Origin: an uncultured Gammaproteobacteria bacterium
Lineage (GTDB): Bacteria; Pseudomonadota; Gammaproteobacteria; PS1; Pseudothioglobaceae
NCBI GenBank assembly: GCA_913057955.1
Contig: CAJXOB010000002.1
Location: 25,079-89,078 of the forward strand
DNA length: 64,000 bases
Reading direction: 5' to 3'
This document shows positions 58,387-63,992 of the stretch, piece after piece; position 1 is the first letter of the stretch, and every line of letters starts with the position of its first letter. The notes below the pieces were generated by a model. The model was not told where the DNA came from, did no database searches, and was given only the letters and a program-made list of their open reading frames with translations. Position numbers and translations under genes: made by a program.

Positions 58387-60804
58387 TTATGAACGAAGTT
58401 TTTCATTGCTATCATCATAGGCTGCACTCAATGAGACATGACAACTACGACTGCCTAGAGAGGTTTCAACACTAAGCTCAACTCCCTCTTCACAAAGGCT
58501 AGGTTGAAGATAAGCAAAGGCGACACTGTGGCCTACTCTAAATCCATAAGCGCCACTCGTTATAATTCCACTAAGCTTATCTCCTTCAAAAACTGCTTCA
58601 TTTCCAAAACACTCGGCTGGAATATCATCATCAAATATGAGGTACGCTAACTTGGTCTTAATCCCATCAATCTTTCTTTGGCGTATATTTTCACTGCCAA
58701 TGAATTCACGACTTAGATCAAGAAATCGATCCATGCCAGCTTCTAAGGCTGAAATTTCTTCAGTAAATTCAGCGCCATATGCTCTGTACATTTTCTCAAG
58801 TCTCATGCTGTTAAAAGCCTGCCCGCCAAAATCTCTCAATCCAAAGGTCGATCCCATCTCAAATAAAGACTCATAGATTGATATAACTTGCCAGCTTGGC
58901 ATATGAAGTTCCCACCCTAATTCACCAGCATAGGAAACTCTCATTGCAAAGACATTTGCAGAATCGATCTTAATTGTTTTACAGCTTAGCCAAGAAAATC
59001 CAGTGTTGCTGAGATCTTCTTGAGTGCATTGACCTAAAATATTTCTTGCTTCAGGGCCAGTCAAGAGAAGCCCACCCCATTCCTCAGTTAAATTTTCTAT
59101 TGTGATATCAAAGTCATCTGAGTGCCACTCCAGCCATTGGTAGTCTTTAACTTCAGATCCTATAGCACCCATTAGAAGAAACTCATCTTTATTAATACGG
59201 CTCACTGTTTGTTCTGCTCGTATTCCACCCATGGACGCATGAAAAAGAGTTAATCCAATTCTGCCATCTTTTGAAGGTAATTTATTGCAGGATAAATTAT
59301 CTAGAAATTTAAAAGCATCCTTGCCGGTAATTCGAAATTTTGCAGTTCCGCTAATATCAGTTATGCCGCAGGAGTTTTGAACAGCCGCACATTCTTGCAA
59401 TACTGCTTCATGAGCTTCACTATGGGCCCACGTTAAAGTTTCATTTCTTATTTTATCAGTTGTGAACCAAGAAGGCTTTTCATAGCCAGTATTAACAGTA
59501 TGAATGGCTCCCTTTTGACTCAATACTGTGTGCAGAGAGCTAACTCTAATAGGTCTTCCATGAGGGCGATTTTCATTTGGAGAGGCGAACGAATACATTC
59601 TTTCATACGACTCAATAGCACGTGTGGTGCAATATGTTTTATCAGCCCATTTGTCAAACCGACGACTATCAAGTGAGGCCATGTTGAGTTCAGTCTGACC
59701 ATGAACCATCCACTGGGCCAGGTATTTACCAATTCCGCCTTGTGCAATACCAATACTTGCACCACAAAGATTCCAAAAATTTTTCAATCCTTTGGCAGGG
59801 CCAACAAGTAAATTATCATCAGGAGTGTGGGTTATTAGTCCATTAATTACTGTGCTAATTCCAACTTCTTTAAATAATGGAACAATATCCATGCATCGTT
59901 CTAACCAAGGCATTAATCTATCAAGGTCACCTTCAAAGAGTTCCCTATCAAATGACCAATCTACGCCATCAAGCGCCCATGGTTTAGAGCCCCTTGTTTC
60001 GTAAGGGCCAATTAAAAAACCACTTCCTTCTTGCCTAATATAGGAGGCTGCAATAGAATCACGAGTTACGGGCAATTCCTTAGAGAGAGCTGCAATATCA
60101 GGATGGTTATCAGTAATTAAATACTGATGCTGTAAGTTAACTAATGGCACATAAGAACCAACCATAGCACCAACTTGTGGCGAGAAGCATCCACCAGCAT
60201 TAACTACATGTTGGGCAATAATATTTCCTAACTCAGTAACAACTTCATACTCACCACTTGGTAAGATATTGATGTCAATCACACGGTTAAAGTTACTAAC
60301 TTCAGCGCCTGCTTTTTTCCCAAGTTGTGCTAATTGAGTGACTACCGTTGTAGGATCTACGTGACCATCATTGGGTGTATATAAAATACTTCTGGCTTTA
60401 TCAAAGTTCATCATTGGATTGATGATTGAGGCTTCTTCTTTCGAGACAAAATGCATTTCACAGCCAATATGATTTGCCTTACTCAAAATATTATTAAACC
60501 ACTGTTCTTCAACTTTGTCATATCCAACCCTTAATGAGCCAGTTTTATGAAATGATGAATCTAACCCAGTTTTTTCAGGAAGAATTTCATCGTAAAGTTT
60601 TATTGTGTACTCATGAATGCTCGATAGAGTATGGTTACCATTAAAGTTTGGACATAGGCCTGCAGCATGCCAGGTCGAGCCACTTGTGAGTTCACCCTTT
60701 TCAATAAGGACAACATCAGTCCAACCTTCTTGAGTAAGATGATACATAAGGTTAACACCTAGTGATCCACCTCCAATGATTACTACTTGAGCATGTGACT
60801 TCAT
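58387..60804 (-). CDS. FAD-dependent dimethylglycine/sarcosine dehydrogenase-like protein with C-terminal GcvT domain
   Basis: 805 aa; VVIIGGGSLGVNLMYHL, covalent-FAD type GSTWHAAGL, C-terminal GcvT-like domain (RVSYAGELGWELHMP). Confidence 0.88.
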   Translation of the reverse strand: MKSHAQVVIIGGGSLGVNLMYHLTQEGWTDVVLIEKGELTSGSTWHAAGLCPNFNGNHTLSSIHEYTIKLYDEILPEKTGLDSSFHKTGSLRVGYDKVEEQWFNNILSKANHIGCEMHFVSKEEASIINPMMNFDKARSILYTPNDGHVDPTTVVTQLAQLGKKAGAEVSNFNRVIDINILPSGEYEVVTELGNIIAQHVVNAGGCFSPQVGAMVGSYVPLVNLQHQYLITDNHPDIAALSKELPVTRDSIAASYIRQEGSGFLIGPYETRGSKPWALDGVDWSFDRELFEGDLDRLMPWLERCMDIVPLFKEVGISTVINGLITHTPDDNLLVGPAKGLKNFWNLCGASIGIAQGGIGKYLAQWMVHGQTELNMASLDSRRFDKWADKTYCTTRAIESYERMYSFASPNENRPHGRPIRVSSLHTVLSQKGAIHTVNTGYEKPSWFTTDKIRNETLTWAHSEAHEAVLQECAAVQNSCGITDISGTAKFRITGKDAFKFLDNLSCNKLPSKDGRIGLTLFHASMGGIRAEQTVSRINKDEFLLMGAIGSEVKDYQWLEWHSDDFDITIENLTEEWGGLLLTGPEARNILGQCTQEDLSNTGFSWLSCKTIKIDSANVFAMRVSYAGELGWELHMPSWQVISIYESLFEMGSTFGLRDFGGQAFNSMRLEKMYRAYGAEFTEEISALEAGMDRFLDLSREFIGSENIRQRKIDGIKTKLAYLIFDDDIPAECFGNEAVFEGDKLSGIITSGAYGFRVGHSVAFAYLQPSLCEEGVELSVETSLGSRSCHVSLSAAYDDSNEKLRS

Positions 60805-60813
60805 ATTAATTAT

Positions 60814-62406
60814 CTATTTTTTAAGTGGCTTACGGCCAATATCTTTTCTACTTAATTTGATATTAAACTTTGCGCGTAATTGTTGATCAATGTCATCACT
60901 AATATGACTTGGAAAGTGTTCTGATAGTATCTCTTTCTTGCGTTGGATTGCTTTTTCTAGTAGAACAGGCTTACCCATATCAGCCCAATCATTTGGACTA
61001 TCCCTATCACTTAAATCAGGAAAGATATATTCACTTTGCATAACGCTAATTGTTAGATCTGAACCAAGATAGTGAGCTTTATCATTCAAGCAAACATCTT
61101 TAATTGTCTCAAAACAAAGAGATTCTTCACTATCATCGCTGAACCCTTTTGTCATTCTCATTGACGCGCCCAATAAATCATTATCCATCAGCAAACTTTC
61201 AGGACAGGTTCCCAAAAGACTTGCATACATTCCAGCAGATTCATAAATTATATTGGCCCCAGCAATTGCCGTGACTGTATGAGTAGATGCTCTCTCTGAT
61301 CCTGCTTGAAAATCTGGGAACTTAGAATCGGTCATACCTGCAGGCGTTCCAGTTGGCAGATCTAAGAAGTTGCCCATCTGCGCGCAAGCTGCAGAAATTA
61401 ATCCTTGTTCTGGAGAGCCTCCACACATTGACCCAGTTCTTAAGTCAGACACAAAAGGCCAAGTTCCAAGAATGGCTGGTGCACCTGGTTTTATAGCGTT
61501 CACATATACCAGTCCGCCAAGACATTCAGCCCAAGCTTGGGATACAACCCCTGGAAGGAGAGGTGGGGCAGTTGCTCCTGCTTGACCAGCCGATAGAAGT
61601 AATATTGGCATGCCACCTTCAACGCCAACACGAACACACTCTAGAGACTCCTCTGCAAATTTCATTGGAGGAACAACATGACAATTACTCATGCTTAAAA
61701 ATGGTCTCTCACGCCATTTTTCTTCACTTCCAGCAATAATATGAAGCATTTCGAGAGCATCAGTTACGTGCTGTGCTTCTGTAAAGCTTGCGCCTAAATG
61801 CTTCTCAGTTCCCATTGCCACACAATAAACTGAGTTTTGATCCATCTCACGCGGACTAACAATGTCCCTCAAGACACAAGTTCGTTGAAACATATGAATA
61901 TGTTCACACTGATCTGCAATTCTAGCCATATCATATAGATCTTGACTTTCAGATTCTCGATACTCATTGTTCTCAGGATCAGCAATAAGAACTGCAGCGC
62001 CAGCAGTTGAGAAGTGAACTCTTGAGCCACTTAAATCTAAATCATGTTTTTGGGATTGTCCATGCAGTGTAAGGCTTCGCTGTGAAAGATTCATGGCTTT
62101 TTTAACCACTTCTTTTGGCATTCTTAATCTGCCATCATCTCCAAGAATAGCGCCGAAAGCAACACAAGTTTCAATGCAGTGTGGGGTGGCATCAGCAAAT
62201 CCAATTTCTTCGAGAATTCGATAAATATTAGCTTCAATTGCTACGACTTGTTTATCACTAAGTGGTTTGTACCTTCCACCAATTTCGCCTGGCAAAACAG
62301 GTTTTTCTTCTTCCGTTAGTGGGGCACTTCTAAGTGCAATTCTTGCCTCTCTTCCACCTGATTTTCTTCTAGTCATAATAGTGATTTGAGTTGAACTATT
62401 TATCAC
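60814..62406 (-). CDS. MttB-family (trimethylamine methyltransferase superfamily) protein, non-pyrrolysine
   Basis: ILEEIGFADATP, HFSTAGAAVLIAD, GAPAILGTWPFVSDLRTGSMCGGSPEQGLISAACAQMGNFLDLPTGTPAGMTDSK; uninterrupted ORF. Confidence 0.88.
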   Translation of the reverse strand: MINSSTQITIMTRRKSGGREARIALRSAPLTEEEKPVLPGEIGGRYKPLSDKQVVAIEANIYRILEEIGFADATPHCIETCVAFGAILGDDGRLRMPKEVVKKAMNLSQRSLTLHGQSQKHDLDLSGSRVHFSTAGAAVLIADPENNEYRESESQDLYDMARIADQCEHIHMFQRTCVLRDIVSPREMDQNSVYCVAMGTEKHLGASFTEAQHVTDALEMLHIIAGSEEKWRERPFLSMSNCHVVPPMKFAEESLECVRVGVEGGMPILLLSAGQAGATAPPLLPGVVSQAWAECLGGLVYVNAIKPGAPAILGTWPFVSDLRTGSMCGGSPEQGLISAACAQMGNFLDLPTGTPAGMTDSKFPDFQAGSERASTHTVTAIAGANIIYESAGMYASLLGTCPESLLMDNDLLGASMRMTKGFSDDSEESLCFETIKDVCLNDKAHYLGSDLTISVMQSEYIFPDLSDRDSPNDWADMGKPVLLEKAIQRKKEILSEHFPSHISDDIDQQLRAKFNIKLSRKDIGRKPLKK

Positions 62407-62492
62407 ATTTTGATACTAAATCAAAGCACTGTCAATTGTTTTTTTATTGCAGGGTTAAAGTGCCTATACGAAGGTAATTTTACCGTCACTAA

Positions 62493-63992
62493 TTAGACAT
62501 CTTTGCCACTTTCAAAGTGAAATTGTGCGCCTTTTCTGATTCCAGAAGGCCACCTTGAAGTGATGGTTTTAAGTTGAGTGTAGAATCGAACACCTTCCAT
62601 ACCATGAATTGAAGAGCCTCCAAAAAGTGATCTTTTCCAACCACCAAAACTATGCATTGCAACAGGAACAGGTATTGGAATATTAACGCCAACCATTCCT
62701 ACTTGTACATTTGATGTAAAGTGACGAGCAGTATCACCATCCCTAGTAAAGATAGCAGTGCCGTTGCCATATTCATGATCATTAACTAGTTTAAGAGCTT
62801 CGTCATAAGTTGAAACTCTAACAACAGAGAGAACAGGCCCGAAAATTTCATCAGTATAAATTGACATGTCTGAAGTTACATTGTCAAAAAGACAGCCGCC
62901 AATAAAGAAGCCTTCTTTTTCTGTTTCAGATCTGCCATCAACTTTTAACTTGGCGCCTTGGTTAATACCAGCCTCAATGTAAGATACAATTTTTTCTTGA
63001 CTAGCTTTAGAGATTACTGGACCCATTTCAACCTCAGGATCATTGTAAGAGCCAATTTTTAAAGAATTGATTTTTGGTATTAGTGATTCTATCAATTTTT
63101 CAGCGGTTTCATCACCAACAGCTACAACGACTGAAATTGCCATACATCGTTCACCTGCCGAGCCGAATGCTGCTCCAATAATAGCATCACTACTTTGCTC
63201 TAGGTCTGCATCAGGCATTACAACCATGTGATTTTTTGCGCCACAAAGGGCTTGAACTCGTTTGTTATTTTTAGAGCCTTCATGGTATATATATTCACCA
63301 ACATTGGTAGAGCCTACAAAACTTACTGCTCGTACTAGTGGATTTTTAAGTATCTCATCTACCGCTTCTTTATCTCCTACAATAGTATTTAAAACACCGT
63401 TTGGGAGGCCGGCCTCATGCATAAGTTCTGTTAACCTTAATCCACATGATGGTACCTTCTCAGAGAGTTTTAAAACAAACGTGTTTCCACATGCTATCGC
63501 AACAGGGTACATCCACATTGGAACCATTGCAGGAAAATTAAAAGGAACTACACCAGCACAAACGCCCATAGGCTGACGTAAGTTATGGCTATCAATACCA
63601 CGGGACACATCTGCGCTAAAGTCAGATTTGAGGTGATTGTTAATTGCCGTGCAATATTCAACTACTTCCATGCCTCTTCCAACCTCTCCCTTAGCGTCTG
63701 AAAAGGTTTTGCCATGCTCTTGTGAAATGAGTTCAGCTAATTCATCCATATGCTCAATAATGAGCTCGCGATACTTAAACATGATTTGAGCACGCTTAGA
63801 GGGTGGCACCTGACTCCATTCTTTGAAAGCGGCATTAGATATTTCAATTGCCTTTTGAGTATCTTTTGAACTGGCGCCTTCGATTTGCCTAATGATTTTG
63901 CCTGTAGCAGGATTATAAATATCAAAAATATGACCTGAGGTTCCTGAAACTTTTTCACCATTGATGATGTGTTTTAAGTGGTTTATAGACAT
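62493..63992 (-). CDS. mmsA: Methylmalonate-semialdehyde dehydrogenase (CoA-acylating) type aldehyde dehydrogenase
   Basis: HIINGEKVSGTSGHIFDIYNPATGKI, GVVPFNFPAMVPMWMYP, GSAGERCMAIS, VGVNIPIPVPVAMHSFGGWKRSLFG. Confidence 0.93.
   Translation of the reverse strand: MSINHLKHIINGEKVSGTSGHIFDIYNPATGKIIRQIEGASSKDTQKAIEISNAAFKEWSQVPPSKRAQIMFKYRELIIEHMDELAELISQEHGKTFSDAKGEVGRGMEVVEYCTAINNHLKSDFSADVSRGIDSHNLRQPMGVCAGVVPFNFPAMVPMWMYPVAIACGNTFVLKLSEKVPSCGLRLTELMHEAGLPNGVLNTIVGDKEAVDEILKNPLVRAVSFVGSTNVGEYIYHEGSKNNKRVQALCGAKNHMVVMPDADLEQSSDAIIGAAFGSAGERCMAISVVVAVGDETAEKLIESLIPKINSLKIGSYNDPEVEMGPVISKASQEKIVSYIEAGINQGAKLKVDGRSETEKEGFFIGGCLFDNVTSDMSIYTDEIFGPVLSVVRVSTYDEALKLVNDHEYGNGTAIFTRDGDTARHFTSNVQVGMVGVNIPIPVPVAMHSFGGWKRSLFGGSSIHGMEGVRFYTQLKTITSRWPSGIRKGAQFHFESGKDV

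Follow-up and report, generated by a model that had tools for sequence, protein, structure and literature searches.

The MttB-DMGDH gene pair and its conservation

Near the end of a contig from a gammaproteobacterium of the Pseudothioglobus/SUP05 clade, a gene for a methyltransferase of the MttB superfamily lies beside a gene for an FAD-dependent dehydrogenase fused to a tetrahydrofolate (THF)-binding GcvT domain. This arrangement raises the question of what such a pair would demethylate in an aerobic marine organism, and of which molecule would accept the methyl groups. The genome (1.57 Mb, 97.5% complete) was analyzed together with a window of 64,000 nucleotides, that is, the whole stretch of DNA under study, which is the terminal part of contig 2 (25079-89078 of 89078). 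The features of interest in this window are the following:

58387..60804, minus strand: FAD-dependent dehydrogenase-GcvT (THF-binding) fusion of the dimethylglycine dehydrogenase (DMGDH) type, by Pfam DAO/FAO_M/GCV_T/GCV_T_C
60814-62406 (open reading frame; probable CDS 60814..62376), minus strand: non-pyrrolysine methyltransferase of the MttB superfamily (PF06253), divergent clade, by Pfam, fold and tree
62407..62435 (given as 62435-62407), minus strand: promoter-like site TTGACA-17-CAAAAT, matching the consensus at 10/12 positions
62493..63992, minus strand: CoA-acylating methylmalonate-semialdehyde dehydrogenase (MMSDH/IolA type), TIGR01722, 655 bits, above the cut-off

Open reading frame coordinates and Pfam domains bear out the initial annotation of an MttB homolog and a dehydrogenase-GcvT fusion on the same strand, separated by 9 bp, and the gap between the MMSDH and MttB genes is 86 bp. 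The MttB gene probably starts at the ATG at 62376 and not at the GTG at 62406, since the N-terminus of most orthologs is M(T/A)RR(K)SGG, matching the ATG, and since the best promoter-like site, which lies within this 86-bp gap, would place the transcript start downstream of the GTG. This site weakly suggests that MttB and DMGDH form a separate transcription unit, given that the scan of the region as a whole found no more sites than in shuffled sequence. The evidence on the MMSDH gene includes an IolG match of 391 bits, above the cut-off; the contig ends at this gene, which is probably a neighbor outside the unit. Its inclusion in the unit, along the lines of a beta-alanine betaine/malonate-semialdehyde idea, was considered and rejected, as relatives show MMSDH with a myo-inositol cluster and often not beside MttB.

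A synteny comparison across relatives covered 62 loci with an MttB ortholog (at least 60% identity), some of which repeat one genome. In 47 of them the fusion follows directly downstream, on the same strand; it is within four genes in eight and absent in one, and the other six are truncated by the end of a contig or locus. The pair is thus kept, adjacent or within four genes, in 55/56 assessable loci. This pairing is beyond chance, and the pair is real and old. DMGDH-type fusions are also found near more distant MttB homologs (50-53% identity) from other gammaproteobacteria and Sinorhizobium. The wider clade varies in its neighborhoods, since the genes beside the Ruegeria pomeroyi homolog (44%) encode an Xsc-like enzyme and a class III aminotransferase. 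Directly upstream of the ortholog in two loci (L070 and L094) is a BCCT betaine transporter.

Features of the two proteins

The MttB homolog matches the Pfam MTTB model with 334.7 bits (cut-off 25) over nearly its whole length, and is thus a member of PF06253. Its AlphaFold2 model (pLDDT 83, pTM 0.83) was queried with Foldseek, and the best fold matches were MttB and MttB-MttC (7xcl/7xcn; E-value 8.7e-38 for 7xcl) and MtgB (2qne/9yce), with TM-scores of 0.8-0.9. The alignment, read with the published description of the Methanosarcina enzyme (PMC9842639), equates Gly136 with MttB Gly110, Tyr388 with Tyr364, and Met358 with Pyl334. The window protein and pyrrolysine MttB are therefore alike in fold, in these glycine and tyrosine residues and in the place of the Pyl334 residue, but differ in the residue that occupies it. 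This substitution, in a frame without internal stop, agrees with the earlier reading of the protein as a homolog without pyrrolysine. Since Met358 replaces pyrrolysine, the trimethylamine adduct proposed for MttB would not be expected here. Likewise, the score against the trimethylamine MttB model TIGR02369 (300 bits) is below its cut-off of 525, and no in-frame amber/pyrrolysine codon was found.

Four MttB copies are encoded in the genome. Against the solved MtgB (2qne), the copy on contig 3 scores 421 bits and two others 316 and 341, whereas the window copy reaches 179 bits, and 166 bits against pyrrolysine MttB. The window protein does not group with MtgB in the tree, where its clade is separate from MtgB and from the other three copies; this tree has long branches (7xcl and the L038 fragment), and no weight is placed on its joining of pyrrolysine MttB with the window clade. 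On the basis of the bit scores and the tree, the contig-3 copy is the better candidate for a glycine betaine enzyme, and a different specificity is probable for the window copy.

The domains of the partner (DAO, FAO_M, GCV_T and GCV_T_C) place it in the dimethylglycine dehydrogenase family. It has the full domain order of dimethylglycine dehydrogenase (human/rat, 5l46 and 4pab) and dimethylglycine oxidase (1pj5), and shares with them the FAD histidine (H46), the active-site His/Tyr (H226/Y255, equivalent to H225/Y259 of AgDMGO) and a GcvT domain with an acidic residue (E531, equivalent to D552). We take these residues to have the roles of their AgDMGO counterparts. Mitochondrial DMGDH is the nearest solved relative (570 bits), and no NCBIfam equivalog cut-off was reached by the partner. 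Unlike these enzymes, the partner belongs to a set of about four paralogs in one genome, which holds at least three other DMGDH-type fusions; it is, by sequence, a putative N-demethylating dehydrogenase of the DMGDH type. It would probably oxidize the demethylated product and hand the C1 unit to THF.

A probable corrinoid methyl acceptor encoded elsewhere in the genome

The initial annotation had found no corrinoid protein or reactivase and had considered the methyl acceptor unknown. The first observation stands for the window but not for the genome, since both genes are present on contig 3. When the genome was searched for B12-binding domains, one protein was retrieved, the sole match to PF02310/PF02607:

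L007:4162-4869 (contig 3): MtgC-like corrinoid protein with the motif DIHDIG...SAL (DxHxxG...SxL)

This protein carries the base-off/His-on motif, and its best model is MtgC, with a score below the strict cut-off of that model. The gene order on contig 3 is corrinoid protein, DUF1638, MetF-like, CH3-THF:corrinoid methyltransferase, GFA, RACo, MttB and formate-THF ligase. The methyl-corrinoid:THF methyltransferase scores 360 bits with NF005719, above the cut-off, and the reactivase is of the RACo/RamA type (PF14574/PF17651/PF17650), so that the genome encodes both a methyltransferase to THF and a reductive activase. Read from the letters of the contig, FdhD-like and formate dehydrogenase-like genes follow the formate-THF ligase. 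The genome further contains a BtuR-type gene and a gene for a protein with a homocysteine methyltransferase domain (an MtgE candidate), and a cobalamin riboswitch lies upstream of a TonB-receptor-like gene; the B12 domain of MetH was not found in the genome. An ordinary corrinoid partner with a known substrate had been named as evidence that would speak against the original reading; the partner was found, the known substrate was not.

Co-occurrence was analyzed in 83 genomes of the taxonomic family. All genomes with MttB belong to two genera (g1 or g7), and stand-alone MtgC (88-100% identity) is found in the same two genera only. In the other genera, MtgC matches occur only within long MetH-like frames, and the four g1 members without stand-alone MtgC are incomplete genomes (54-76%). 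Moreover, MtgC adjoins or lies near the MttB ortholog in four relatives (L068, L070, L075 and L079). In L070 the two frames overlap by 8 bp, and its MtgC is 64% identical to that of the host genome. RACo is near the ortholog in two relatives. Because of the contig-3 cluster, the co-occurrence within the family and the adjacency of MtgC in relatives, the methyl acceptor is very probably an ordinary corrinoid protein, MtgC, and can no longer be regarded as unknown. Adjacency and co-occurrence also lend indirect support to the contig-3 MtgC as the protein that would accept the methyl group from the window MttB, which is a probable quaternary amine:corrinoid (MtgC) methyltransferase.

These data bear on whether the MttB homolog might work without a corrinoid and transfer the methyl group straight to THF or homocysteine, for example via the GcvT domain of the partner. 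Such a reaction would agree with the pairing of MttB with a THF-binding domain in most loci and with a window that itself has no corrinoid gene. However, the corrinoid protein, methyltransferase and reactivase of the genome, the family-wide co-occurrence, the MtgC genes adjoining the ortholog in relatives, and a predicted MttB fold matching the MttB-MttC complex make it very improbable.

Candidate substrates

PutA (proline dehydrogenase) is divergently adjacent to MttB in 10/20 congeneric genomes holding both genes, at distances of 690-2171 bp between the matched stretches; these ten cases share ancestry and are not independent. Some congeners have the order DadA-like, pyrroline-2-carboxylate (P2C) reductase (NF004793, 420 bits, above the cut-off), PutA, Lrp, GcvA-like, MttB and DMGDH. 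In the tree, the PutA-linked lineages include early-branching members of the genus, and the link looks ancestral and later lost. In the host genome, PutA is on contig 11 (C11) and not beside the pair. Relatives outside the genus have no PutA next to MttB; instead, 5-formyl-THF cycloligase, a GcvA-type regulator, an HD protein or a second DMGDH fusion are found there. The location of PutA off the contig in the host and its absence beside MttB outside the genus count against proline betaine, as do the differing neighbors of the R. pomeroyi homolog and the cases of two successive fusions. The HD protein was evaluated as TmpB/PhnZ (phosphonate to glycine betaine) and rejected, as it reached no more than about 36 bits where the cut-offs are 214-300.

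From these neighborhoods, the most likely substrate would be proline betaine (stachydrine) or a close relative, a choice that we make tentatively. It is favored because the one N-methyl group left after the first step would fit one dehydrogenase, which would then leave proline for PutA. Both proline betaine and betonicine have been reported in polar plankton (PMC10579395).

The initial annotation had proposed glycine betaine, with MttB producing dimethylglycine and the partner oxidizing it. In its favor, no solved protein is closer to the partner than dimethylglycine dehydrogenase, the marine MtgBCD system has been demonstrated to use glycine betaine (PMC12478193), and some relatives carry two fusions in a row, which would suit a substrate with more methyl groups. 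On the other hand, the window copy is far less similar to MtgB than the contig-3 MttB of the mtgC cluster, it is less similar than the other two copies as well, and its clade stands apart in the tree. Furthermore, the genome has the other DMGDH-type fusions, in two genomes (G047 and G048) mtgC has a different DMGDH paralog about 1 kb away or less, and the PutA link would be left unexplained. The betaine-type, two-step part of that proposal is therefore retained, but glycine betaine itself is an unlikely substrate, and proline betaine is the likelier of the two.

The same corrinoid mechanism could also act on another acidic quaternary amine, such as carnitine, gamma-butyrobetaine, beta-alanine betaine, hydroxyproline betaine or taurine betaine, among others. 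MttB paralogs of one organism differ in substrate (PMC8604678, PMC12155760), a gamma-butyrobetaine-dioxygenase-like gene is near the ortholog in L068 and L100, and the R. pomeroyi homolog, with its aminotransferase and Xsc-like neighbors, points in this direction as well. Nevertheless, such neighbors are limited to single relatives or to a distant homolog, whereas the recurrent neighbors in the genus of the window are PutA and P2C reductase, and we regard these other amines as possible but somewhat doubtful substrates.

Proposed two-step N-demethylation

From the genes, folds, conserved residues, neighborhoods and co-occurrence observed here, we infer both the reactions and their substrate. 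The pair would be a two-step N-demethylation module feeding a genome-wide cobalamin/THF methyl-oxidation pathway. In the first step, MttB would move a methyl group from a quaternary ammonium carboxylate (betaine) to the MtgC-like protein, whose gene is on contig 3, with Co(I) as the acceptor. From the corrinoid, the pterin-domain protein of the same contig (MtgD/MtgA type) would pass the methyl group to THF, the MetF2-like protein and formate-THF ligase would take the THF-bound methyl towards formate, and the RACo protein would re-reduce inactive Co(II). In the second step, the FAD domain of the partner would oxidize a remaining N-methyl group, and its GcvT domain would capture it as 5,10-methylene-THF.

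A corrinoid-dependent two-step N-demethylation by this pair of some betaine, an algal osmolyte, is likely. This supports the earlier suggestion that, in an aerobic marine organism, a betaine-type substrate may be demethylated by the MttB homolog and the product oxidized by the partner. More speculatively, we propose an aerobic cobalamin-dependent route for proline betaine (perhaps betonicine) in the SUP05 clade and other marine gammaproteobacteria. Along this route MttB would form N-methylproline, the fusion would act as a THF-linked N-methylproline dehydrogenase yielding proline, both methyl groups would reach THF, and PutA would convert proline to glutamate.

Relationship to known systems

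In 2025, MtgB-MtgC-MtgD of the aerobic marine bacterium R. pomeroyi was shown to act for glycine betaine and methionine, together with the further components RamA, DUF1638 and MetF2; mtgC was reported in the SUP05 clade, and it was noted that further PF06253 paralogs may serve other methylated compounds (PMC12478193). This is the only relevant match found in our search of the literature on SUP05 and MttB, and none was found tying MttB to proline dehydrogenase or proline catabolism. Judged by its genes, the corrinoid system of the host is a variant of this already known system: it likewise comprises MtgC, MtgD, RACo/RamA, DUF1638, a MetF2-like protein and an MtgE candidate, no B12 domain of MetH, and several PF06253 paralogs. 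It differs in that the window MttB is not the MtgB-like paralog but belongs to a separate clade, forms a unit of its own together with a DMGDH-GcvT fusion, and has a linkage to proline catabolism.

Likewise, the report on Eubacterium limosum (PMC8604678) describes several non-pyrrolysine MttB paralogs (MtpB, MtcB and MtyB) that use different betaines and feed one common corrinoid protein (MtqC) and, with MtqA, THF, the mttB genes being apart from mtqC and mtqA. E. limosum, in contrast, is an anaerobic acetogen, and the passages considered here mention neither an oxidative second demethylation nor a DMGDH partner.

Implications for osmolyte use in the SUP05 clade

Betaines are abundant osmolytes of plankton, and it was only in 2025 that an aerobic, B12-dependent route was demonstrated for glycine betaine. 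What is new here is that the aerobic MtgC/THF pathway, itself already known, has a divergent MttB-DMGDH module joined to it, for which proline betaine as substrate is a testable hypothesis. The data suggest that a single corrinoid protein serves several MttB paralogs in a streamlined aerobe, as in E. limosum. If the module serves proline betaine, the B12-dependent osmolyte economy of SUP05-clade bacteria would be wider, and marker genes for proline betaine turnover would have been named.

Gene neighbourhoods of the MttB homologues and the MMSDH gene of the window

The CoA-acylating dehydrogenase gene beside the window MttB (MMSDH; 62493-63992, minus strand) probably encodes IolA, since in several relatives (e.g., L041:10258-19900) the MMSDH gene adjoins an inositol cluster with the following members:

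IolG (score over the cut-off)
ABC transporter of the rhizopine/inositol type

The source genome carries another pair of MttB and DMGDH-GcvT fusion genes on the same contig, and its surroundings were as follows:

before the pair: ABC transporter genes, together with a gene resembling those of GMC oxidoreductases
contig 2, 6529-11826 (locus L005): MttB-DMGDH pair
after the pair: DddP-like protein (472 bits, below the cut-off of 600)

An MttB paralogue (37-38%) with a DMGDH fusion was found in two congeneric genomes (L047:4751-14166 and L048), and likewise on a plasmid of Ruegeria sp. SCSIO 43209 (L110), so that this cluster is common to different classes. At all three loci the paralogue is accompanied by genes that resemble those for D-cysteine desulfhydrase, amino acid racemase, and histidinol dehydrogenase. 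On the megaplasmid of R. pomeroyi DSS-3 (L107:12001-21321, SPO_RS21400 to SPO_RS21380), the gene of an MttB homologue (44%) forms a single run with those for two FAD oxidoreductases, an aminotransferase of class III, and an enzyme resembling Xsc/acetolactate synthase.

Distribution of MetH within the family

Among the family genomes compared, no MetH-type B12 domain was seen in most genomes of genus g1, whereas a long MetH-like frame is kept in the other genera of the same family. This distribution is consistent with the split MtgCDE system (corrinoid protein, CH3-THF:corrinoid methyltransferase, and candidate homocysteine methyltransferase-domain protein) acting as a substitute for MetH in g1.
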